From Polytrichum commune (taxonomy: Eukaryota; Streptophyta; Polytrichopsida; Polytrichales; Polytrichaceae), in the NCBI GenBank assembly GCA_950295325.1, contig OX485807.1, forward strand, positions 25,143,666 through 25,207,665: a stretch of 64,000 nucleotides of DNA. Reading direction: 5' to 3'. Under the pieces are notes generated by a model that was given only the letters and a program-made list of their open reading frames with translations, did not search any database and was not told the origin of the DNA. Positions within the stretch are counted from its first letter, which is position 1. The number at the start of each line of letters is the position of its first letter. A program made the translations under genes and the position numbers. This document shows positions 8,654 to 52,434 of the stretch, piece after piece.

Positions 8654-10570
8654 CTATTTTGCAGTGTCACGGAAGCACATTGTCGGGTTAACCATGTTGT
8701 ATGGAGGGGACTTCAAAATGTTCACTACGTGTGTGATGGTTGACCTTTCCGCTGGATTGGTCTTCGTCAATGAATCCAATGCTAACTCAAACCGCATATT
8801 CAAGCCATTTGGATCACTGTTTAGCTGAAACAAGGGGGAAGTCGCATCCCTGGCATAAATCTTCTTTGCCAAAGCACCCACTGAGAAGGACTCCGATAGA
8901 AACGTGTGCCTATGTTTCCGAGCCATCCTCACCGGAGAGGTGGATGTTCCACGCTGCCCTCGTACATGGAATAATTCTGGACCAGCACAGTTGTATTTTG
9001 CTTTGTGCTTGTTCATCTCATCCACTGAATCTTTTCCATAGTTGGAGGGTGCGTCTTCACCTCCCCAGGATGCCATGCTCCAATCACACACACCAATGTA
9101 AACCGTGTTCTCACGGTCTTGTGGGAAATGCAGCATGACATTGTTGGGATTAAGGTCATTGTGCAACATGTCATGCTTGTGCACTACATCCACAATGCAC
9201 ATTAGAGCCCATGCCAAATAAACTCGATGCCTTCGATATACAACCAACCGTTTCCGTGCTTCAAAGTCTGGCCCATGCATGTGAAGGATTGTGCGCTCGT
9301 GGGTTTCCGGAACGCTGAAGTCATAGATCCTCATATTTTTCAAGGAGCCTCCATTCCACCACATCGAATAGGATTCGTATGTTTTCATATTGAGGTATTG
9401 TAGCTTGATTACCCCAGGATGATCTACTGGACACGCCAATGCTTCAACTGAACGTTCCTTTCGATTCTCCAAACTATTCGTGGCCTTCATGGTCTTCCCA
9501 GCCCACTCTATCCAGCTAGGGATGAATGATGCTCCATGAATTGCGACTTTCCGCACCACTCCGAAGGTCCCTTGGAAGATTTCCTTATCCAAGGCTTTGA
9601 TCTCCGCATTCCTAGGCAACCATATGACACCTTGCCGGCCCTGAGTGGCAATGTTGTCTGCCATCTGCCTGTCAATAGAAATGGGAAGGTTGCGGGCGGA
9701 TGTTCCTTTTGCTGCTATTACGCCTCTTTTCCAATTCTCTAGCTTCATGTACAGCTCGGACTTCCTGTCACTACTACTTCCCTCGCTAGGATGCACAACC
9801 TCATATGCCATTGTTGGATTGTAGATTGCTTCCACGGCTTGTTGTTCAATCCAGGTGCCCCAATCGCTCATGCCCCTAGCATCTTCAAACTCCGCTCCAG
9901 CCGTGGCTTCCGTGAGAATAAGAATCAAATCGTTCCTCACCAAATCCAACCCCTTTGTACCATCATTGAGGTATTTTTTTTCCAAATAAACCATGCTGTT
10001 ATTTCTAAACCACTCCAACAGCACGACCCTACAATGGTTTCGAGCCTCATCGATCCGCGGGTCGCGTTTGCCTCTATTTTTCCTTTTCCTCGATTGCGAA
10101 CCTGAAACCCCGGACCCCTCCTCCGTCCCTTCCGAAATTGCTGGGCGTTTTTGTCCCCGTCTTTCACCATGCTCCGAACCCTGAGGTACATCACGTGCAG
10201 GGCTTTCCGGTCTTGATGTCCGCCGTGTCGGAGATCGTGGTGGCACGGACTCTCCATGAGTGGCTGCATTTATATCGGTGGAACTGCCTGAGCTTGGTCC
10301 CCTTCCTGTTCTCCCTCTATGTCCACTGTTTCCCCGACTCCCACGTGTTCCACGGCTTCCACGTGTTTGGTTGCCTCCTGAATGGCCAACTGCAAAGAAC
10401 TCTTCGTCAAACCGAAAAGGATCTGGACATGGGGGACGTGCTGCAGTGCTTCCACTTCCGGCCTCGCTTCCCGTACCCTCTCCAGTATGTGCAAGTGCAG
10501 TGCTTTGGAGCCAAGCACGGTGCAGCCTCGTATCCTCGTCTTGGTAAGGAGCAATGTCCTCCCCCTCCAT
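8654..10570 (-). CDS. protein kinase-like protein, intronless
   Basis: A 638-residue protein if translation starts at the ATG at 10570 (MEGEDIAPYQDEDTRL). An in-frame extension upstream to 10735 is unlikely because it would read through the 5' leader. The first ~230 residues are low complexity (Gly/Ser/Arg-rich, with basic KRKNRGKR). The C-terminal half is a eukaryotic kinase fold: glycine loop FQGTFGVVRKVAI near 332, candidate lysine in WAGKTMK near 359-362, catalytic loop HNDLNPNNVML at 470 (HND where most kinases have HRD), DWS at 496 in place of DFG, and GPE at 530. Asp and Asn of the catalytic loop and the metal-binding Asp are kept, so activity is possible but the DWS loop is atypical. 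No retroelement domain is present. The family, substrate and role are unknown to me. Confidence 0.75.
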   Translation of the reverse strand: MEGEDIAPYQDEDTRLHRAWLQSTALAHTGEGTGSEAGSGSTAARPPCPDPFRFDEEFFAVGHSGGNQTRGSRGTRGSRGNSGHRGRTGRGPSSGSSTDINAATHGESVPPRSPTRRTSRPESPARDVPQGSEHGERRGQKRPAISEGTEEGSGVSGSQSRKRKNRGKRDPRIDEARNHCRVVLLEWFRNNSMVYLEKKYLNDGTKGLDLVRNDLILILTEATAGAEFEDARGMSDWGTWIEQQAVEAIYNPTMAYEVVHPSEGSSSDRKSELYMKLENWKRGVIAAKGTSARNLPISIDRQMADNIATQGRQGVIWLPRNAEIKALDKEIFQGTFGVVRKVAIHGASFIPSWIEWAGKTMKATNSLENRKERSVEALACPVDHPGVIKLQYLNMKTYESYSMWWNGGSLKNMRIYDFSVPETHERTILHMHGPDFEARKRLVVYRRHRVYLAWALMCIVDVVHKHDMLHNDLNPNNVMLHFPQDRENTVYIGVCDWSMASWGGEDAPSNYGKDSVDEMNKHKAKYNCAGPELFHVRGQRGTSTSPVRMARKHRHTFLSESFSVGALAKKIYARDATSPLFQLNSDPNGLNMRFELALDSLTKTNPAERSTITHVVNILKSPPYNMVNPTMCFRDTAK

Positions 10571-10795
10571 CGTGAAAAAAACCGCGTGAGTGAGCGAATG
10601 TAAAAAGGAGTGAGTGAATGTAGAAATGAGTGCGTGAATCTGGAAAAAAAATTGCGAGGGTTCCCCCACAATTTGCCCTGCCCTCCCAAACCCCCTGAGA
10701 CCCGCGCGGTGCCGCTGTCCTTGGGACGGCAACAAGGTCTCGGGTCCCTTTGTGGTGGGAGGGGAGGAAAGTGAGGGGAACTAAAACCCCACGGC

Positions 10796-35940: not shown

Positions 35941-36988
35941 ATGCTGCTTGAAGCTTCACACGTGGTCATCCGTTCGATTCCTGTAGGCAAGTCGATCGTG
36001 CAGCAAGGAGGTCAGACCCATTCTGAGATAATCATTACCATCGTCATTTTTGTGGTTTTGTTGCACTTAGTGATTGATTGCCGAGTTCCGGCGCTTTTAT
36101 ATTGAGGTTCGTTTCGCAGCAATGTCCGGGGAGAGTTTTGGGCATAATCGGCCGAGATCCTAGTGTTTTCAAGTCCAACCGGTTACATGTTGTGATCTTC
36201 CGGTCTTTCATTATCTATTCAAGGTATATGCCATAGATTCCTCTAAAATGATGGGTAATTATCCTGAAGTCTTGAACTTCAACCGGTTTTCTCTTAAACT
36301 CAATAGGCTCATCTGTACCTAGCGGTCGGTTCTCCCCGTTTTATTGCTTTGCAGCTCCAGTCGCAGAGGATCAAATGTCACGGAGACATATAGAGAGGAG
36401 GTCTGATTGAAGTTCTGCAGGATCTGTTCGACTAAAGACGATCGTAGTTGGTGCCTTGCAAATCCACACGAGGTTACTGTCAGAAAGTGCGTTTACACAC
36501 AACCACCGTTTGTGTGGTTGATGGTTGTAGTTTACTTAATTGGAACTTAATTTGGTTGTATTTTTGAGGTATAATGATAACGATAGAGAAGGTGCATTGA
36601 TGACAACTACAACCACAACTCCTCTTACTTGCCCTATTTCGATATCAGATGTACTTGGGAGTATGTCCAACAGTAATTATGTGTAAACGTGGTTGTGGTT
36701 GAAGGTAGCAGTAGTAGACACTCAATACCAATTACAGCAGAATTTTCGGAGTTCCAGGAGGAAGCTCAAAGGTCACTAGTACAGCTTAACCCTTTAAAGG
36801 CCAAGAAAGCCTCTGATCCGATGGCTTGTCGATCGAGAGTGGAGTGTTATGACGTCTGAACAATTCTACGATTTAAGCTCTGCGGTGTTGCCTTATGAAC
36901 GCTAACAATTGAATTTCAATCGGAGTGACGTGCTCTTAGATCAGGGTGAAGGGACGAATATCTTGAGAAGCTCGACACTGTGACGGCG

Positions 36989-39900
36989 ATGGAGGGACGT
37001 GCCAAGACGTTTGTGAATAATATTCCCTTTGCGGCGACTGTGACGGAATTGATCACATTTCTGGAGGCATCGATTGGGGCAGGCTCAATCTTCTCCGCCA
37101 AAATTAAGGTCGATAAGGAAAATGGGAAATCGATGGGCCAAGCGGTAGTGGCTTTTGAAGATCGAGACAGCGCTCTCAAAGCTGTAAATTTAGCTGAGTT
37201 TGGTACTCTACAGTTTCAGAACAAGAAGATTGTCGTAAAGCTGGTTGACAGAGACATCGTGCACAAGCCGAAGCACAACCTTATAACCGTTGAGCTCGGT
37301 AGTCTAGACTTGGGCTATATGAAGGCGGACACCACCATGCTCGTTTTGTGGTCATCGAGCTCCAAAGCAGTGACCACGGACGTCGATTTTAATAGCAGGA
37401 GAGTGAGATATACCCTAACTGTGAATGAAGCGACGCAGTACAAATTGGAATTTCACTTCGAGGACATCTTCTTCATCAACCCCACCGCCATACCAAAGAA
37501 TGGAAACTTTGCCCTCCTGATGCAGGTCTTGACGCAATACCCTAATGATGTCCCCTGATTTGCCTGCATTTCCTCAATTTTGTCGGTAAGTCTGCCTGCA
37601 TAGACAATGATGAGAAGTGTTCATGCTCATCGAGTCACCCTTGAGTAACTCACCAGGATTGCTACTTGTGCAGATCCAAAATCCACCGCGGGTTTTTCAA
37701 AGAGGATACCATGGGGACAATGAGGGCGCGATTCATGCGGACTTCCAGTTTAGTTTTTCCAAGGGAGCGAAGGAGGAGCCGTGGGCGAGAAGCACAGACT
37801 TCACACCGAACAGCTCCATAGGGCAGGCCTGGGCGTACCTGCTCGAGTGTCCAGACCTTAAACTAGCGGGGAAAAAGGATCTCTTTCAGAAACTCGCTGA
37901 TTTTAAGTTAGCGGAATACCCGCCGATCAATCCTCGAAGGGTGAATCTCCAATCTCCAATCTCCAATCTCTCAACGGTGACACGTCAGACGCTTGTGCCC
38001 ATAGTGGAGGCACCGGAGGACATGGGTATCGCATTTGAGCTCATATTCAAAGTGAATGAGCTCGTGCAGTATGGGAAATTGATCCCTGACGATCTGACCA
38101 GGGCATTTTACAGTATATTAAAGCCACGTTGCACTCCACATGAGTATGCAAAGCTTGGACTTCGTGAGATTTTGGAGCTGAAATCCGTTGTGTGTTGGAA
38201 TCCTGTGCGAGTTTTCTTCAACGCCGTGCTGAAACACCAAGCCAACAAAGTGCGAACCCCCATCTCCGGCTCCGTGAAGCTGGAACGAAGCTTACTGAGT
38301 GTGCACAGGCTCGCCATTACTCCCACCAAAGTTTACTGCTATGGCCCGGAGGTTGACCTCTCCAACCGAGTGACAAGAGAGTTCAAAGACAAGGTAGACA
38401 ACTTTCTTCGTGTGTCCTTCATTGAGGAAGATTGGGAGGAAACATCAGCCACCGCCCTCACCACAGGCTCCGACAAGGAGGTTTCCCGTGTTTATGATAG
38501 ATTCTTGCTGGTGATGCGCGAGGGAGTTAAGCTTGGAGGTAAAAACTATGAATTTCTGGCATTCTCCTCGAGTCAACTGCGTGAGCGATCTTTCTGGATG
38601 TTTGCCTCCACAGGGGACGTAACACCTGCATCTATTAGGGAATGGATGGGGAACTTTCTGAGCATCAGGAACGTAGCCCAGTGCGCTGCTCGCATGGGTC
38701 AATGCTTCTCATCTTCCACACCTACACTCGAGGTGCCTTCTCGAGAACTGGAACTCATTGACGATGTGGAGAGGGTGGATAGGAGGACATCTATAAAGTA
38801 TTGCTTCAGTGATGGGATAGGCAAAATCTCCGAAGACTTTGCCAAACAAGTCGGCCGCAAGTGTGGGCTCCGGCGAATGGGAGTGTCTATGGCGCCATCT
38901 GCTTTCCAGATCCGCTATGGTGGCTACAAGGGTGTGGTAGCGGTGGATCCATACTCACTATATAAGCTTTCACTGCGCCCAAGCATGCGGAAGTTCTCTT
39001 CCGAACATATTGGCCTTGAGGTTCTGGGCTGGGCTCAGTTCCTGCCTTGTTATCTGAACCGGCAGATCATCTCCCTGCTGTCCACACTTGGGATTGAAGA
39101 CCACGTTTTCGAAAATCTGCAAGAACGGGTGGTTGCTCAACTAGATGCCATGATAGAGGACCCTGTCGTGGCTCTCGAAGTTTTGCAGGTATCTCCTCCA
39201 GCCTAACATGTGAAGATGTCATGTTCGAAATGAGAATCTTTTAACATTATACAACTTACATGTTGTTCACATAGAACGAAGCTGTAGAAAGTGTATCCTA
39301 AACCCTAAACTTTAAACCTCTACAGCAGTTAAGAATTGACAGGTAGATTCCACAACAGTGGACTGTGGATGGAAGTCTAACGTGAAAACATAGTTTTCGA
39401 AGTTGGATGCTTCCGAGTTTTTTTGGAGCACCATAGGATCAAAGCATATTTATTATTACTCTACAGGTCATCCCCAGAAAGTTTCAGTATTTAATTTTAC
39501 ACAAGGTTGATGAGATCAGCATTTACAGAATCCTTACATTTGTCCCCGCCAGTCAGGCATCCAGCAAGTCAGTGCGTGCAGAAGTTACAAATTCTCAGAA
39601 AAGTTAATCTATGTATAGAAAAGGTACGGTCTTCCTCATTACGTTACTCTGGTCACACAAATTCTGAATCATCTGATGCAGGCAACACATTCAGGAGACT
39701 CACACCGAGCAATCAAGAAGATGCTCGAGATTGGTTATCATCCGGTTAAAGAGCCCTACCTGAAGAGCATGCTGAGTGCATTTCGAGCGTACCAGTTACT
39801 AAAATTGCGCACAAAAACCCACATCTTTGTTCCAACAGGGGCATTAGTTATGGGCTGCCTTGACGAGACAGCCGTGCTCAACTACGGGGAGGTGTTTCTC

Positions 39901-41633
39901 CAACTTACACCACCTTCAGCAAATTTTCACCAGCTGCAGGATGGGTTGGATGAGTATCCAAAAGAACTCCACGGAGAGGACAGTGATATAGTTGCAAGGG
40001 TGGTGACAGGACAAGTGGTGGTGGCAAAGAATCCATGTCTCCATCCTGGGGATGTCCGCGTTCTTCAGGCTGTCAATCACCCAGGCTTACGACACATGGT
40101 GAATTGCCTCGTGTTTCCACAGAAGGGCCGCAGGTGCTTAATTTCTTGACACATCATTCATCCTTTGAGCATTGCTTGGTGATTGTGAAACTGGCTTCAA
40201 AGCAGCAGTTAATCTAATATTCTGGACATTGGAAGTGCAGGCCACATCCCAACGAATGCTCCGGGAGTGATTTGGATGGGGATCTATATTTTGTGAGCTG
40301 GGATAGGTCTCTCATCCCACTCAATATGGAGGAGCCGATGGACTACACCCCTGCACCAAGGACAACACTAGACCATCCGGTTACTGTGGAAGCAAGTTTA
40401 ACTGCTCCTTTAAACCTTCTTTGCATCATTGATTCTACTATCATTAGTACTATATACTCCTGCAGCCCACGAAAGGTAACAAGGATGAGCAGTAATCCCT
40501 TTCAAAACCTTGTCTCCAGGTTTGGGTCAGTACCCGTGCTGGCCTGCATATTGATGACCGGTTACAAGATTATATCAAGGATATATAGAGTATGTAACAA
40601 TATTGTGTCTATGATTATATCTGTGCAGGAGCTGCAGGAATTTTTCCTAAACCATTGGCTCAATGACAACCTGGGGCAGATTTCGAATGCACATGTGGTC
40701 CACGCGGATCGCGAGCCACTAAAGGCCAGGAGTAAGAAGTGCATAGATCTTGCCAAATTATTTTCTATTGCTGTGGATTTCAGCAAAACAGGCGTACCTG
40801 CAGTCATAACCCATTCCCTCCGACCAACTGAATATCCTGATTTCATGGAGAAAGAGGATAAACCCACATACCGATCTCAGCGCGTGATCGGAAAGCTGTT
40901 CAGATCTGTGAAAGAGGCAGCAACTCAGAAAGTCCCGGACTTGGATTTGTCAGAAGAATCCATGTCCAAGTACTATGACCAGCAATTACAGGTTTCACCT
41001 TCTAAACCTCAAGCCTCAATGCGAGTCATACATAATATGTGGAGCTCGCCTCATTTGCGGGTTTTGACCAAACTGTGTCATGATATCCAATTTGGGAAGG
41101 GTATTGTGATTATTGAGGATTTGCAAACATATCCACTCGCTATTCAATCTCACCTCACAAGTTCATCTCTGCAGGTATTTGGTTTTGAGGATTACGTGGA
41201 AGAAGCCATTGCGTACAAAAACGAATATGATGTGAAGCTTATTGGACTAATGAACCAATATGGCATAGAGACTGAGGCCGAATTGATGGGTGGCAACATT
41301 TTACGGCTGTCACGGCATTTTCGAAGGCGGGTCGAGGAAGTCAAGAAAAGGATTCATTTAGCAGTTAACTTGCTGAAACGAGAAGCTCGTGCATGGTTCT
41401 TTGGTCAACAGGGCAATGAGGAGGAGGAGGAAGAAGAAGAAGAAGAAGAGCGCCGGGAAGTAGATCACTTTGCCAAGGCTTCCGCTTGGTATCATGTCAC
41501 CTATCACCCTGACTACTTCCATAAAAATGATCAATTTTCTGCGGCCACGAAGGTGAAGTTGCACCTCTTGAGCTTCCCTTGGGTAGTCAATGACATCCTT
41601 TTTGAGATCAAGGGAAATTACACTAGTAACTAG
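36989..41633 (+). CDS. RDR1: RNA-dependent RNA polymerase, RDR1-like (six exons)
   Basis: It makes double-stranded RNA from single-stranded templates in small-RNA silencing. Exons: 36989-37525, 37674-39188, 39682-40133, 40241-40391, 40629-40991 and 41175-41633, giving 1158 residues, close to the usual ~1100. All junctions keep frame (phases 0, 0, 2, 0, 0). Introns 1, 2, 3 and 5 are GT-AG; intron 4 is GC-AG. The N-terminus is an RRM-like domain (KTFVNNIPFAATVTELI, residues ~3-75). The RdRP core follows, with FLRVSFIEEDWEE, FSDGIGKIS, FQIRYGGYKGVVAVDP, VVAKNPCLHPGDVRVLQAV and the catalytic DLDGD at 845-849. DLDGD (not DFDGD) places it in the RDR1/2/6 class, and the overall match is best to RDR1. 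It ends with AKASAWYHVTYHPDY. A run of glutamates near residue 1090 is an insertion. No stop or frameshift is present, so it is probably functional. The ATG at 36989 (MEGRAKTF) is the first in frame. Confidence 0.93.
40392..40628 (+). other. GC-AG intron 4 of the RDR1-like gene
   Basis: The donor is GAA|GCAAGTTT and the acceptor CTGTGCAG|GAG. GCAAGT is the consensus of the minor GC-AG intron class. Splicing joins VTVE to ELQEFF, which fits RDR1 proteins exactly. No GT donor gives this join. The 237-bp intron is a multiple of three and has no in-frame stop, so retention would insert 79 residues. Confidence 0.8.
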
Positions 41634-43091: not shown

Positions 43092-44032
43092 CATATATGC
43101 TTATCTTTTTTGGCTATCAACAACTTAGGCACTTGGGACTCATCGCCTTCAAAATGCAAAGACCTCTTCTTATCGCAAAAGTAGGTGATCAAGGTAGTCT
43201 TTTTGTACCTTGCAATGCAATTCATGAAACACAAGAAATAAAATCAAGGGGATTTCACACTAGAGCTTGGAGGTCTATGACCATTAAATTCTAAAATCTC
43301 TCACTGGTAGAAAATGCTAAGATCTTCCCACTTCACTTTACACTAGAGCTTGAGGTCCTAAGGGACCAAAGAGGTTTGAATGGATGAAAAACTTCATGGA
43401 GTCCTCCATGGCATGCAATGGATAATGTTTCATGGTCTACCAAATTTTGAGTCAAGCCCACTTCAAAATAAATGCATACCACATTTGTTGTGTTCTAACA
43501 CTCTAGATTATTCATAAAAAATGAGATATTGTCTAATGACAAAATTATTACAACCACTATCATATAAATTACTGCTAGAAGAGATAGTGTTCCTTTGAAG
43601 CTTTAAGCATCTAAATACCCAAAGTGAGATTTGGAGGATAAACATGCATGTCAACAAGTTCTACCTACACTTGACTTCCATCAACTTCAAGGAATTTCTT
43701 CAAGCATCATGTTTTTGCCTTTTGTGCCCCATAACTAAGACCAAGTGTTGCTGCCATTGTCACCAATAATAATGCATTAGAGAATCAAAGTCTTTCACTA
43801 CTATGACCTTATCAACTAAAATGAGCCAAAATGTCCAATATGAGACAATCCGTACCTTTGGGAACGTGCATTGGGAACGTAGTTGACGAGCAAAATCCCG
43901 TGAATATACCTTAATTGACAATGTTTTTGGAACCACTTGATATAAAAACACATTGTTTCAAACATATTGGTTGATTCACCCGTTGTACCGGGGCACATAC
44001 TGCTGCAGAAACTACACCATAGAACGGGCCAA
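41634..44032. other. AT-rich spacer after the RDR1-like gene
   Basis: It holds the 3' flank of the RDR1-like gene and long AT-rich DNA. An (AT)n run occupies about 43053-43078. I see no gene or transposon protein here. Confidence 0.6.
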
Positions 44033-44751
44033 CCACGGGCGAAAGCCCGTGACCAAGGAACACCGCCCAACACATGCGGGAAAATTTCTATAACGAAAGC
44101 TTGACTAACCACAACACATGCACTACAGTAGGAGATATGCACTACAGACAGAGATATGCACTACAGTAGGAGATATGCACTACAGAAGCCTGACTGTCCA
44201 AAGGCAGATCAACACAATTGAGAAGCAATAAAGCGCTTGAGAGCAATTGTGCTCTAAAATCAGAGGTGAAATCATAGAAGCCTGTCGCCACTAAATTTTG
44301 GATAAAGAATGTTGCTACATCGCACCACGGGCGAAAGCCCGTGGCCAACCAGCACCACGCAAAACATGCAATTTTAATCCATAGCAATTGCCTAACTGTC
44401 CTAAACCAGACCAACACAACTAGAAGCATAGATGCGCATGACAACGTATATGTAATACATAAATCATTTGTCCAATCACATAAGCCATAAAAGACACTAA
44501 ATATTGAACAAGGTAGAGGGATAAATCTACGCCAGGACGAAAACCCGTCACAAACCAACACAATGTAAATCATGCACATTTTAAACCAACACAATGTAAA
44601 TCACACCAAAGATATGTGCACACAAAGAAGACACTACCATACACATGACTATATTTGTGTCCAAAAATTAATGGTTGAATCATAGATACCACAGTGGGCA
44701 CATCATATTGCAGAGAGTTAAAATATAAATGTACCACGGGCGAACGCCCGT
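44033..44751 (+). repeat. degenerate tandem array carrying hairpin repeats
   Basis: Four hairpin sites lie at 44033-44051 (loop GAAA), 44325-44344 (loop GAAA), about 44533-44549 (degenerate, GACGAAAACCCGTC) and 44734-44751 (loop GAAC). Spacing is about 290, 205 and 205 bp. Each is followed by related DNA (CCAACCAGCACCACGC..., ACCAACACAATG..., ACAACCGCTAATACAC...), so the hairpin is part of a larger decayed tandem repeat. Confidence 0.7.
44118..44190 (+). repeat. 19-bp tandem repeat, four copies
   Basis: ATGCACTACAGTAGGAGAT starts at 44118 and recurs at 44137, 44156 and 44175, with one copy reading CAGACAGAGAT. It sits between two hairpin sites. Confidence 0.9.
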
Positions 44752-45529: not shown

Positions 45530-45550
45530 CCACGGGCGAACGCCCGTGGG
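45530..45550 (+). repeat. hairpin repeat, loop GAAC
   Basis: CCACGGGC, loop GAAC, GCCCGTGGG. It is between the small minus-strand gene and the FCP1-like exon. Confidence 0.9.
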
Positions 45551-45756
45551 ACAATGACAGATGAACAACCAGTGATGCAAAGCAGTATAGTCGCATTAGA
45601 TATATTCATGTACATATGACTGTGCCGATACAACAACATTACATAACTTAGGATAAAAAACCAAAACAAATTCATGCATAGTGTGAGTTCCTCATTAGTC
45701 CAATATGCAGTACAAATTGAAAATATGTACACTTCGCCAGAACTTCCTTTGGCTGG

Positions 45757-46542
45757 CTACATTGGCATCTGCGCCGCTGGAATTCTACGATCCGTAGTCA
45801 CTTCTCTATGTCTAGCCAACGCATTCTTATATATCTGCGAATTTGGTAACTCTAGATTGAAGGGTCCCTGGCCTGATGGATAAGGGTTGCTCCCTACAAA
45901 ATCTGGAACATAAACTTGTGAAGTCAAAAGGTTCTGCAAGTAATTATGGAGAGTATCCAAGCTCTGGTTTGACAGAAAAGGGGGGGGGGGATTAATGTAA
46001 CTCCCTGAAGGGTTTGCTATGCACTTGTAAGGGGAGTCATCAACAAGCAATGTGGTTCTATGAGTGGGTGGCTTCGAATGCGGCAGGGGATGCATCCGAC
46101 TCCACTCAAAAAATGCGCAGAGGTCCTTGATGAAGAAGCTCAACTCAGCATTCACGGGACTGGGTAAACTCTTTCCGCGCTCATCGGCCAAAACTTGACA
46201 CATCTCCTGGCCGAATACATACTCAGGCTGCCTACAACCTTTGAAGAAGTATTGGACAATTGGCTTGAGATTCTTCAGAACCTTGGAGGACCAGATGACA
46301 ACATGGAAGTTTGAAAGCACAAAGCGCAAGAACCGTCCCAATCCCTTCCTGGGAATGACGGCACTATAAGGGAGAAATAGTGGAGCCACTTCCCCACTTA
46401 TTAACGGGCTATGTTGTGCATCAAGTGCCTTCCTGGTGTTGACATTGTCGCACTTTGCGTTCCTCACCAGAATCCCGTTCACATCCAGCACTAACCATAT
46501 CTTCTCTCTCCGGTGAACAACTGTACTTGGAGAGGTGGGGAT
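45757..46542 (-). other. FCP1/NIF-like phosphatase (HAD) domain exon
   Basis: This last exon of the composite gene reads IWLVLDVNGILVRNAKC (HAD motif I), then LGRFLRFVLSNFHVVIWSS (motif II), and TTLLVDDSPYKC ... SGSYINPP (motif III/IV). These match the C-terminal-domain phosphatase fold of FCP1, TIM50 and NLI-interacting factors. Motif I is DVNG, not DLDET, so the second Asp is Asn; plant FCP1-like proteins with LDVNGLL exist, and catalysis may be lost. The exon has no internal stop. Confidence 0.8.
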
Positions 46543-48121
46543 CTGGCGATGACAAAATCGAAAGTCATTCTAATGGATTCTCATCTAACGAAACAATATT
46601 ATGGTTAGATATAAGTATAGCATACATAAGAGGGCAAAGTAGCTACGCAATCAATTAGTTAGGCGAAATCTAGCAGAATCCCGTACCGTCACTGGCACTT
46701 GATCCTCCAATGAGCGACCTGAGACAAAATCCACAAACAAAGTTCATGAGTACGTAGGCAGAAATCATAGTGTAGACCTTTACTTGAATGAAATGTAAGC
46801 CAACCTCTATGAAGGTAAATATTATAGCATACCTTCAGCTCGAGGGCCCGGTGAACTTGAGGCAGCGTCGGGACGGACAGGGGAACTCGCACGATGATCA
46901 CGAGGGCTTGAGGACCCAGCAGCTCCAACATGGACTTCACGGACGGGAGATTCCTGTGCTCCGCTAATGTCAATAACCTCCAGCGTAGAGTCAACAACAC
47001 TCTGAGCTTGCCCAGCAGCGGCTCCCTGACCTTGACCTCGTCCTGGACGTTCTGGTGGGGCATCGAAGAATGTCCACCTCTTTCGCATTTTCTTCAACGA
47101 AGCAGCATGGAGGATATGCTTGAACTTCACAGCTGCACAAAACGCTGGCGTGGAGAGATACGCAAACATCTTGTGATAGTCATAGGACTTGTACATGTTG
47201 CTCAGGTTCAAGCGCACATTCTCCGGAACCTCCGACAAATACTTGTCCACGAAAGGCGCAAAATGGACCTTGTCCTTCTCATCTGACTCCTTGCCCTTGC
47301 CCTTGTCCTTGTCGGATGCGTTCGGTGGAGGTCTTGCCGCAAAAAGGGGGTGAGGATCATCAGCAAAGCTTAGTTTCACCCTGCTGTACCCAGGCTTGCC
47401 GTAGTCCTCGTCCTCCGAGTCGTCTGTCATATAATCGGCAAACGTTCCCCGAACACGATATGGAACAGGGTCTTTCACCTTAACCCGCACATCCATATCA
47501 ACACGTCTCTGGGGCATATCATCATCGCTGTCCAGGCAAATGACCTCTGTCCGGATGACCGTCTCTTTTTCTCCTGAAGCCGAAGCAGCTGCAGGTTCCT
47601 CCTCAACCGCGGCTACAGAGGGCTCCACATTTGGACGCGCTTGTCCTAGGACCTCTAGAACCGCCGCAGCAACCTCTTCCACAGGTGAGGACACGTTCAA
47701 ATCTGATCTCTCCCCACTCACCAATTGGGTATCCATGATAGTATCGATTACATCATCAACATTGTCAACCTCACCTTCATGAACAGCGCCAGTCTCGCCC
47801 TCGTCATCGCGGCTAGATTGTCTTATATCCTCCGAAGAGCGAGATGCTTCTCCACCCCTAGGAGCTCGCAGAGATTTTCGTCGGATAGCCTTAACCTTCT
47901 TTCGAGCAACCGGCTTCGATGTAAACCTTGGAGCATGTATCTCATGTTCCCGAGTATCACTTGGCGTTTGCTCTTCTCCGATTTCCTCATGCTCCCGACT
48001 TTGTCGGGAAGCCTCAAACGGCTGAAATCCGCGCCCCGGAGTTGGCGGGATACCAGATGTATATGATGACCCAGGGGGCTGAAGGCTCCTCTCTGAGGGA
48101 CCTCCCTCTCCCTCAACAGGC

Positions 48122-48239
48122 CCCACGGGCGATCGCCCGTGGGAGGGACCTCCCTCTCCCTCAAAAGGCCCCACGGGCGATCGCCCGTGGGAGGGACCTC
48201 CCTCTCCCTCAACATGCCCCACGGGCGATCGCCCGTGGG
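48122..48239 (-). repeat. three hairpin repeats in coding sequence, 48-bp period
   Basis: Perfect 22-bp inverted repeats (stem CCCACGGGC / GCCCGTGGG, loop GATC) at 48122-48143, 48170-48191 and 48218-48239. They encode the peptide repeat GPSHGRSPVG-(P/H)(V/F)EGEG, 16 residues per unit, inside the acidic region of the composite gene. Confidence 0.95.
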
Positions 48240-48284
48240 ATGGACCTGCATCCCCCTCATCCTCATCCTCATCATCTCCCAGCT

Positions 48285-48520
48285 CTTGCAATGGAGCTTC
48301 AGGGGGAGCACCCTCATCATCATAATCATCTCCCTCATCATGGCCTTCCTCGTGCTCCTCTTCACGAGGATCCTCGTCAACCTCCTCCTCATTAACCTCA
48401 TCCTCCTCGTCATCAAGCACCACCTCATCAATCTCCTCTTCATCCTCCTCCTCTTCATCGTCCTCCTCTTCGATATCGTTGGCACGTTTGCTTCTCCTCT
48501 CGCGATCAATATCCTCATCC
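48285..48520 (-). other. Glu/Asp-rich coding stretch
   Basis: The composite gene here encodes a run such as EEEDDEEEEDEEEIDEVV and EDEVNEEEVDEDPREEEHEE. The plus strand is a CTCCTC-rich polypyrimidine tract. Such acidic stretches are common in histone chaperones and nucleolar proteins, but this alone does not assign a role. Confidence 0.8.
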
Positions 48521-51433
48521 TCGCTGTTGTCTCCCGAGTCCTTCCCTTCTTTATACCACCTTTGTAGGCTCCAGTCAACGGCCGCCAACATTCTTGCCTT
48601 TGCCGTGCCAACGACATCCACAGGAACAATGTTCACGACCTTCATACCCAGCGCCTGCAAAAATAAGATAAAATAAATTTAGAAATGGCGGACATATACG
48701 TAATTCATGGTCATTGTTGGAAAAACGAATATGAGTACATAATAAGGATACAAAATGTGAATTCTTACATGTGCGACGATATGAGCTTTGTTTCCACCGC
48801 AAACATTCAAGAAAATTGTCCCTTCCAGACAGGAAGGCTTGATGATGTCAATGTACGTCTGCATCCTGAGCTCCCCCTTGAAAATGGATCTTGACGCCTC
48901 ACTGGCATAAGCCCTCTTCACTGAATATCGCTTGTAGTCTCGGGGGTCATGCATGTCCAACATCTTCCTCCCGCCGCAAATCCGTACTGCTACCTCTTCG
49001 GTTGACTCCCCTTTTTTGGGGAAAATGCAAGTCGTTACCCTCAAAGAACTATTCCGGTAAAAGCAGCCCTGCGAAGTAAGTTTCTCCCCACTGCATCCTC
49101 TGTACAAGGCTTCACAAAACCTCACATTGTACGGGAGATACGCCTTCAACACATTGTGTATAAAGTGTCGATCAGGATACTCCGACACGACAGTCCACAA
49201 TTGTGGGGCTTGTAGTATTCCAGGGAGGTCCCGACGAAGACCTTGCAGAGTGCCTTCAACAATCTCCTTCACACGGAAGCCACTGTCCACTCCGTACCTA
49301 ACTCCAAGAAGAAACCTCGTGTCCATGAAAACATGGGTTATTGGAGCAAACGTTTGTCCCTCAGCACTAACCCGAAACTTGTTGTCTATAGACAACACTG
49401 TGTGCTCCTCCAACACTTCCCTAACCCAAGTGCTAAGTATATTGTTCACTCCCTCCATAAATCGTGCAGGAATCGGCACTTTCTTCTTGGCGGGATTCAA
49501 AGCGGCAGCTAGGTAATCCGCTCCCAGTAGGTCCAGTAGTCTTTCCCTCTGCAGCCGTCCAAAATTGTTCGTCTCCTTCCATGCATGCCATTCGTCGTGG
49601 TCAATAGTGTTATTCTGATCAACTTGAATAACATAACGTGGGGGGGGATCTAAACATTCCGCCATCGCAATATATGTTTCGTTCTTCTTCTTCCTATTGT
49701 ATGCCCACTCACCAATTGTCTTCAAGGTATGGCGGGGATACTCTTCACCTTCTCTGGTGACCAGACATTAATCCGCTGCCATGTCAAGCTTCACCTCTGT
49801 CAAGCCGCGAGTGTGCTTCATGTCGTTCTTCACAACACTTTTGGGTTTAAAACCCTTCTTCTCCTTTGCCAACGCCAGGGTTTTCTTGTCTATATACTTG
49901 CCTCTCTCAAAATCCATGAAAATTCGCTCTCACTTTCTCCAGAGTTCGTCACCCAACGTCAGGAAGATGTGTTCCATTATCAAATTGGATTCCTTCTCCA
50001 CACGGAAGGTCCACATGAGGCACGTGGTGAATTCCTTCCATTTCCTGAACGCTTCACTGTTGGTTGCACTCTCCCGGTTTGTTCGAGGCGGCTTTCCTCT
50101 TCGAATCCACGTCTTCCTTGCGTGCTATATGCACTCCACCCATGTTGGATAGTGCTTTCTATATTCACTATCCAAGTTTAGAACACCAGAAAGATGGAAC
50201 AAAGGATCATCATCACCTTCAGGAGCCCATACCACATTGCATGGCCATCGAGAAAAAAAATTCTTCACCTCCGGAGTGCTCTCTGGGTCATTGACGAACT
50301 CCAGGCAGGCAGCCAACGTGTGTTGTCCATTAACCACATGGAATCTCTTGTCTTCGACCTCCTCAAAACTTCCTGGCTTCGAACTTCTATCTGCTGGAAC
50401 GATGGTCAAAAAGTTCGGATGGTTCTTCTGCATGAACGCAAAATTGAAGAGCCACGTCTTCATCTCTCTCAAATGCGCCTCTGATATGGGTTGACAATTG
50501 TATCCCGCATCTCCCCGCTCAACATTTGCGATATTTACATATCCAGAGACACCCTCGCCAAATATAAACACTCTACTGTATTTCTTCATAAAAACCTCCA
50601 AGTCCATCAACCTATCTCCAACAGATTTATCCGGCGGCCCACTCTTCGACTTCTTTGGAATCTTCTCCACCTCTAGGAAAGGACTAGGATCACTTGGCTT
50701 CTTCTTTCCCTTCCTTTGATTCTCATCTTCTTCGGGATTGTCCTGTACAGTCAAGTCCAGGACGTCATCCTGTCTTGCTTTCTTCCTCGTTGCCGCCTCT
50801 CGAACCTCATCTCCTGCCTTTCTCTTGCCTTCACGGATTTGCTTCTTCTTCGATAATGCCTCCAGCCTTGATGCCTTTGCCTCCTCCACTATAACCTGCA
50901 CCCTGCGGAGAGCAGCTTTGTAGTCCTACTCGATCATGAATGCTCTCTCCTCTTGGGTCTTTGTGTGCTTGTTTGTCTCGCCGTAGATGATACAATAAGT
51001 TAGGAAGTCGCCATTCGTAGACTTGATATTCTCTCCCTCATGATTTAGCTCTTCATTGACATCTTCATATGCGAACGAGTCCACATAGCCAACAACCTTG
51101 AAATCCTTCTTTCGCTTTGAAGACTTGCACATTATCATAACCCTTTTTCCATCGGCTTGAAGGTCCAACACGTGCTTTGCTTTCATATATCTCCTCCATG
51201 TAGTATCAATCTCTGTTTTGGTGTACAATGACAACACCGTTGTCTCCCCAAAGCCACTATATTGCATGAACCACTTGACATTCTCTCCCAAATCGACTAT
51301 GTCCCAGGTCACTGTCCTGGACATTCCACCGGACACTGCGTACAAACAAATGGACATGTTAATACCCTAGGCAAGTCGATGCTTTCGACTATCTAGAAAC
51401 ATATCGAGTCTGTCTTAGGTGCCGTTGTCCTAC

Positions 51434-51464
51434 CTTTTCGAGCAGTCTGCTTCGTTCTTGCCAT
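51434..51464 (-). other. first coding exon encoding the histone H3 N-terminal tail
   Basis: The 31-nt coding exon reads ATG GCA AGA ACG AAG CAG ACT GCT CGA AAA G. The translation is MARTKQTARK, identical to histone H3 through Lys9. The donor G|GTAGGA and acceptor TACGCAG at 51336 give a 97-bp intron, and the next residues are V-S-G-G where H3 has S-T-G-G. An upstream ATG at 51471 is out of frame with exon 2. Only the H3-tail frame joins the long downstream frame. Confidence 0.8.
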
Positions 51465-51683
51465 CGCTCATGAAAAGAAGGATTTCAGTTCAAAACGTCT
51501 ATGTACCTGAATGAAACAAACACTGTCTATTTTAAGTTCTGCACTATACTGCACATTTCCAAAAGAGAAAGGATGATTTCATTTCCTACTGTTAACCATA
51601 TATTTGCTTGTTATATAGCCCATATAGAATGGCCAAATAGAATGCCTCTACATTATAAGATGCCTCTACATTGTGTTACAAGG

Positions 51684-52434
51684 CCCACGGGCGATCGCCC
51701 GTGGGAAGTCCTTGTCATTTGTCTCTGCAAACCAAATCTCTGGTTGCAAGGCCCACGGGCGTTCGCCCGTGGGCAGTGACCTTGCCAACCCCCTTTGAAT
51801 TCTTAGTTCCTAGATAGGTTCTTTCATACAAGGCCCACGGGCGTTCGCCCGTGGGCCTTCCCCCTTTCCTTTTCTAATTCATTCATCTATCTAGTATTCT
51901 AATTCACTCTCATTCTTTAATTCATACTATCTGTCTAATTTTCTTCATACTCATATTTCTCTCAAACATTTATCTCTCTCAAACACATATTTCTCAAAAA
52001 TATATTTCTCAAACACGTACTCCTATTTTCTCAAACACATATTTCTCTCAAACATACCCACTTACTTCTCTCAAACATTCTTATCTTTTATTCATACTCG
52101 TATAATGATTCTCATATGAGAGTTTCATTTTTTACTCACATCTATCTTTAATTCTATACCTCTATTATTTCTCTCATTCATTCCCATTTTTAATTCATAT
52201 TTATACTCTACCTAGTTTCCTTCATACAAGGCCCACGGGCGTTCGCCCGTGGGCCTTCCCCCCTTCTAGTTTTCAATTCATACATCTATATAGCTGTCTC
52301 ATTCCTACTCAAACATTTATTCTCATTTTTAATTTATACTACCTAATTAGTTTCCTCCATACAGGGCCCACGGCCGATCGCCCGTGAGGCAGCCCCACTT
52401 CTCGTTCTAGAGCCCACGGGCGTTCGCCCGTGGA
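51684..52434 (+). repeat. upstream cluster of six hairpin repeats
   Basis: Sites at 51684-51705 (loop GATC), 51752-51773 (GTTC), 51834-51855 (GTTC), 52232-52253 (GTTC), 52367-52388 (GATC, stem slightly decayed) and 52413-52434 (GTTC). Several share flanks: CATACAAGG before and CCTTCCCCC after, then an AATTCAT...CATCTAT stretch, so the hairpin has spread within a larger repeat. The cluster lies just upstream of the H3-tail exon. Confidence 0.93.
51886..52160 (+). repeat. pyrimidine-rich degenerate repeats
   Basis: Repeats of CTCTCAAACA(T/C)A..TTTCTC words, for example TCTCAAACACATATTTCTC, between hairpin sites. No coding potential. Confidence 0.8.

Follow-up and report, generated by a model that had tools for sequence, protein, structure and literature searches.

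A probable mimic of the histone H3 tail encoded by a large DNA transposon family of Polytrichum commune

Histone mimics are known from pathogens and from host factors, and in one host example, the SNAG domain, the sequence diverges from that of the H3 tail. SNAG domains such as those of SNAI1 and GFI1 have been reported to occupy the LSD1 pocket by imitating the H3 tail (PMC5896174). The VANC proteins of the Arabidopsis VANDAL elements are described as anti-silencing factors that act on the noncoding tandem repeats of their own element, and these repeats diverge (PMC10398659). As regards the ends of transposons, Sola2 elements have short imperfect inverted repeats and AT-rich 4-bp target duplications of the form AWWT in the published cases seen (PMC3627910). 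Among the open-access papers listed by literature searches, no title or abstract opening describes a transposon protein of the H3-tail kind. In the genome of Polytrichum commune, a family of transposons of 20-35 kb probably encodes such a protein, a mimic of the H3 tail that would engage the host proteins which bind this tail; this reading is drawn from the DNA sequence and its predicted products.

One copy lies in the 64,000-nt stretch of DNA that was analysed, hereafter the window, where the following genes of the element are encoded on the minus strand:

51434..51464, minus strand: exon 1 of the mimic gene, MARTKQTARK plus one base (ATGGCAAGAACGAAGCAGACTGCTCGAAAAG); 31 nt, phase-1 donor
51336..51433, minus strand: intron 1, 98 nt, GT-AG (GTAGG...CGCAG)
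48766..51335, minus strand: exon 2, VSGG start, inner end approximate; drawn from reading frames, with relatives in alignments A1 and A2
46822..48654, minus strand: last exon, start approximate; acidic, low-complexity, with repeated PSHGRSPVG (palindrome in coding sequence, see below)
45757..46569, minus strand: NIF-like, phosphatase-like gene (PF03031, E 1.3e-9), the element's second gene, downstream of the mimic gene

After the start Met, the exon-1 peptide is identical to residues 1-9 of H3, and exon 2 continues in frame from 51335 on the minus strand as V-S-G-G-M-S-R-T-V-T-W-D (VSGGMSRTVTWD). The predicted tail peptide, ARTKQTARKVSGG, is the counterpart of H3 1-13; it has V-[SP]-G-G where H3 has S-T-G-G and keeps G12-G13. 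Residues from Lys14 onward are not copied, which weighs against the mimic reading. The original prediction had picked out this locus as an H3 tail on the first exon of an unrelated long gene, and much of it is confirmed: the 31-nt exon giving MARTKQTARK is present at 51464-51434 on the minus strand, and the splice in frame to V-S-G-G, followed by a long non-histone frame, can be read in the window sequence. The intron is 98 nt long rather than the 97 bp claimed. As to the argument that a ten-residue identity is hard to get by chance, 3.5e-5 occurrences of MARTKQTARK are expected on both strands of the 408-Mb genome when computed from the base composition of the window. The long gene is indeed non-histone, but the context of a large DNA transposon had been missed, and it is not one odd gene.

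The window copy of the mimic gene looks decayed, with several in-frame stops after the tail exon; other copies have open exons. Exon 2 is apparently a single exon in the window subfamily, and the frames of five other copies (L051-L053, L055, L056) suggest an extra intron. The window subfamily, represented by the window copy and L054, reads RKWKEFTTCLMWTF straight through, and the second intron suggested for L051 and L055 seems absent there. The C-terminal part of the last exon recurs in other copies.

When 10-kb stretches surrounding three copies from different chromosomes are aligned, they share 97.5-99.4% identity almost from end to end, and the mobile unit must therefore exceed 10 kb. Inverted repeats and 4-bp target duplications were found in all four copies examined, giving an element of 20-35 kb, and judged by these ends the mimic gene belongs to a DNA transposon with terminal inverted repeats. 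The repeats start ATRGGGATATTAACTAAAATGAG, or ATGRCCTTATCAACTAAAATGAG in the window copy:

C3 copy: 19.9 kb, target duplication ACTC
C6 copy: 24.2 kb, target duplication CTTG
C4 copy: about 25.1 kb, target duplication TTGT
Window copy: from window position 43803 to C5:25222824 (L090:825, outside the window), 35.4 kb, target duplication TACT
43803..43833, plus strand: terminal inverted repeat at one end of the window element, ATGACCTTATCAACTAAAATGAGCCAAAATG
43799..43802, no strand: target duplication TACT, present also after the far end

Upstream of the mimic gene and divergent from it lies a gene with a DUF7869 domain (PF25273, E 3.2e-46). Of the 57 mimic copies known in the genome, 44 have a divergent DUF7869 gene within 30 kb and five more have one at 30-60 kb, eight having none within 60 kb; in 2000 trials of random placement the number of copies with such a neighbour averaged 0.15 and never exceeded 3. 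The 13 copies with no DUF7869 match in divergent orientation within 30 kb weigh against the main reading. The DUF7869 protein is the probable transposase, and no paper of the open-access library searched mentions the domain. A DUF7869 relative (P0078) and a relative of the mimic protein (P0051) both have a longest contig of 30,922 nt and probably share one metagenome contig with the same gene arrangement. Three distant DUF7869 copies (C5:52457920, C6:36391997 and C3:36942441), 40-53% identical and with 1031-aa frames, have none of the 57 mimic copies alongside; these may represent a related element that lacks the H3 tail. Each of the six further 10-kb copies (L051-L056) also has the NIF-like gene, its frame being shortened in L054.

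A CACTA-type tnp2 gene lies within the window copy of the element at 61472-59670. It has at least 76 matches in the genome (73 of 759 candidates scored), and among the tnp2 matches listed, none apart from the one in the window falls within 45 kb of a mimic copy, all 57 being considered. Membership of the CACTA (En/Spm) group, with tnp2 as part of the element, was rejected because tnp2 is not near other mimic copies among these matches, and the gene is taken as nested in the window copy. An RdRP gene at 36.9-41.6 kb was likewise rejected as cargo, since its position is beyond the inverted repeat at 43803. The RdRP frames (PF05183, with a weak RDR6 second-domain match; 36950-41633, plus strand) adjoin an RRM-containing frame, some 2 kb outside the end of the element. 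Elsewhere in the window, a 708-aa frame that weakly matches a protein kinase (8654-10780, minus strand) lies near retrotransposon-like polymerase and integrase frames, named by eye, at 11.9-14.9 kb.

A search of the genome with the exon-2 peptide finds at least 57 matching places in 408 Mb, about 406 Mb of which are assembled in seven large contigs (42-78 Mb). By the evidence of these copies, the tail-bearing gene is a multi-copy transposon family and not a single odd gene. Family copies lacking the tail would have spoken against the original prediction, and they are the exception: exon 1 is readable in 54 of the 57 copies, and in 37 it is exact, a short tail match through Lys9 in a non-histone protein, as expected of a histone mimic. 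Among the first 30 loci exon 1 is present throughout, as MARTKQTARK in 25 and MARTKQTTRK in five; the other 27 include 12 exact copies, eight with A7T, one with T6I, one with A7S and two with R2K together with A7T. Exon 1 is not recognisable in two loci (L069, L083) and is broken by a deletion in a third (L084). Residues A1, T3, K4, Q5, R8 and K9 are invariant in 54/54 copies.

The start codon and the splice are conserved along with the peptide. In 53 of the 54 exon-1 copies the ATG is preceded at 3-9 nt by an in-frame stop, in L065 the distance is 63 nt, and none of the 54 contains another in-frame ATG in this interval; the exon-1 ATG, if used, is therefore the N-terminus of the protein. A TTTCATTCAG/GT-like stretch 31-42 nt upstream, similar in seven representatives, may be where a leader intron ends, and an out-of-frame ATG directly precedes the start in the window subfamily. 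All 30 loci of the first set, which includes the window copy, have a GT donor, an intron of 98-105 nt and a CAG acceptor leading into VSGG, and intron 1 measures 97-108 nt across the other modelled copies. A second set of 22 exon-1 loci could be modelled with VSGG or VPGG at the acceptor, two more (L078, L080) not fitting the acceptor pattern; as this pattern presupposes two Gly codons, the 22 loci are no independent test of the Gly pair. Alignment A1 comprises 24 metagenome relatives that are single-protein records, so that exon 1 could not show in them; V[SPH]GG stands at the acceptor in 8/24, three start with MSGG and the other 13 begin further in.

For the mimic protein, searches of Pfam, NCBIfam, PADLOC and PDB sequences returned nothing convincing: the best Pfam match (E 0.0047) is confined to one of the 24 relatives, and the best NCBIfam match (E 0.002) is far below its cut-off and falls in the low-complexity last exon. 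At E 0.5, none of the 24 relatives in alignment A1 matches a histone family of Pfam. A weak ParB-like match (phrog_1033) occurs in two of them, with a best E of 0.0058, and no ParB Pfam match was found at E 0.5 among the 24. A prokaryotic, viral or plasmid origin of the mimic was rejected, there being no relatives in viral_contigs, genome_contigs or plasmids.

The strength of selection on the tail can be gauged against its surroundings. When the window copy is compared with five representatives of other subfamilies, identity is 46-54% in intron 1, 69-74% in exon 2 and 77-87% in exon 1. On a tree built from exon 2 of 52 loci, parsimony assigns 13 silent and 12 replacing changes to exon 1, and dN/dS is 0.30 for the nine codons of exon 1 vs 0.31 for exon 2. 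By the whole-exon value, which matches that of exon 2, the tail is under no stronger constraint than the remaining protein, and this counts against the mimic reading. Ten of the 12 replacing changes fall at codon 7, among Ala, Thr and Ser; with this codon set aside post hoc, 10 silent and 2 replacing changes are left for the remaining eight, and on the same tree the six codons for A1, T3, K4, Q5, R8 and K9 have eight silent and no replacing changes. Mimicry, with a putative binding to host proteins, is supported by this retention of the peptide through silent codon changes. Several observations weigh on the other side, namely Thr at position 7 in 15/54 copies and Ser in one, R2K in two copies, T6I in one, and the lack or loss of exon 1 in 3/57; moreover, the copies are not statistically independent, because many are recent. 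Thr at position 7 would probably alter the readers of Lys9. Across the loci L021-L050 and L059-L085, codon 7 has changed between Ala and Thr some ten times as the neighbouring residues stay fixed, and it may be either a hot spot of mutation or a switch with a function.

The origin of the tail was approached through the H3 genes of the same genome, which match plant-type H3. The set comprises 17 starts encoding MARTKQTARK and one aberrant start (L013), with 10 distinct starts. Compared with exon 1 of the window, the 17 starts show 6-9 differences in 30 bases, every one of them silent; the seven exact element variants reach a best identity of 23-24/30 to the 10 distinct starts, and random synonymous encodings reach 24.7 on average (sd 1.4; best identity against nine of the 10). 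Recent exon capture from an H3 gene was rejected on this ground, the codons being no closer than random synonymous encodings. Of the two origins originally offered, exon capture or mimicry, the latter thus keeps the support of the silent changes, and the former, when the exon is set against the H3-gene nucleotides, leaves no trace of capture. Such a codon comparison would bear on recent capture and cannot separate an old capture from convergence. It is accordingly conceivable, if quite improbable, that the start of an H3 gene was captured long ago and was kept for its start codon and for nuclear localisation, its likeness to H3 being itself unselected. The peptide is identical to H3, codons saturated over time would mask an old event, and histone H3 carries nuclear localisation signals (PMC5677370). 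Against this, the nucleotides retain no trace at 23-24/30, the Arg2 codon is AGA in 52/54 element copies and CGT or CGC in 17/17 H3 starts, and all 17 H3 starts run from Lys9 straight into STGG with no intron at that point. Any basic stretch might serve import, yet A1, T3 and Q5 are fixed in 54/54 copies. It is far less probable still that a chance likeness in an ancestor was kept by descent through recent amplification together with splice or RNA constraints. Many copies are recent and near identical, hence not independent, and the whole-exon dN/dS does not fall below the exon-2 value, both of which suit such an account; however, the genome-wide expectation of 3.5e-5 and the persistence of the peptide while intron 1 falls to about 50% identity and silent sites change argue against it.

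A second feature of the element is a palindrome, CCACGGG(C/T)GNNC(A/G)CCCGTGG, which occurs nine times in the window, all at 45530-52433 and inside the element:

51685..52433, no strand: five palindrome copies, CCACGGGCGWTCGCCCGTGG, upstream of the mimic gene
48123..48238, no strand: three palindrome copies within the last exon
45530..45549, no strand: one palindrome copy downstream of the NIF-like gene

A tenth copy with one mismatch, at 44325, is inside the element too. No occurrence of the palindrome is present in 29.6 kb flanking two copies whose ends are known, or in 42.8 kb of H3 loci, and it was seen only in the element in the DNA scanned (the window, the 10-kb copies, these flanks and the H3 loci). 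Its core is CGGGCGNNCGCCCG (CGGGCG..CGCCCG) in L054 and the window and CGGGTGNNCACCCG (CGGGTG..CACCCG) in L051-L053, L055 and L056, and in L051 and L055 tandem arrays of 47-53 bp units contain it. In six 10-kb copies, 5-8 of 10-14 palindromes lie 0.2-1.25 kb upstream of the mimic ATG, as do five of nine in the window. The remainder are within or beyond the mimic gene; the upstream group is thus part only of the total, which weighs against an anti-silencing array. The three palindromes of the last exon form a 48-bp tandem repeat encoding PSHGRSPVG, and the DNA motif may have spread within the element regardless of coding. From their sequence and placement, the palindromes look like candidate binding sites for an element protein.

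If the tail is a mimic, exons 1 and 2 would be joined in the transcript and the start Met removed to expose Ala1, and the tail would then be recognised by host binders of the H3 N-terminus, such as LSD1-type demethylases, writers of Lys4 or Lys9, and PHD or chromodomain readers. An element protein, the mimic or another, would sit on the palindromes, where the tail would capture or block silencing enzymes. By analogy, sequence-specific anti-silencing is the most likely use of the tail, a proposal that we make tentatively, and tethering of the element to chromatin is the next most likely. The model joins the precedent of H3-tail mimicry by SNAG domains to that of VANC. The mimic protein may itself be the palindrome binder, the one hint being the ParB-like match in 2/24 relatives. 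In its complete form, with a palindrome-bound element protein showing an H3 tail to the host Lys4/Lys9 machinery and so rewriting or blocking silencing on the transposon alone, the model is possible and somewhat doubtful. We consider it unlikely that the tail instead tethers the transposition machinery, with host H3 readers directing the element to a type of chromatin or supplying factors for cut-and-paste, and with no anti-silencing involved. The conserved tail fits this too, the mimic is encoded alongside the putative DUF7869 transposase, and the yeast Ty5 integrase, which targets via a short host-like motif, provides a precedent. Yet the tail is carried by a separate long protein and not by the DUF7869 protein, and the duplications ACTC, CTTG, TTGT and TACT have no obvious common sequence. 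Were the anti-silencing reading true, it would constitute a histone-mimicry form of sequence-specific anti-silencing, and an exact H3 tail on the protein of a mobile element, kept across subfamilies, would mean that transposons use the histone code against or with their host.

Compared with the known systems, the element resembles Sola2 in its short imperfect inverted repeats and 4-bp duplications, which agree in length but differ in composition from the AWWT of the published Sola2 cases seen (PMC3627910). It is large and has extra genes, and the comparison is one of ends. Histone H3 itself shares residues 1-9 and G12-G13 with the mimic, which lacks a histone domain. With VANC the element has in common a transposon-encoded protein and diverging noncoding tandem repeats; VANC is likened here by description, binding and a loss of silent marks are hypothetical for the present element, and the abstract on VANC mentions no H3 tail (PMC10398659). 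The SNAG factors have an N-terminal peptide that imitates the H3 tail, as does the present mimic (PMC5896174). Theirs is a divergent mimic in host transcription factors, whereas the tail described here, for which binding to LSD1 is hypothetical, is encoded by a transposon and exact through Lys9.
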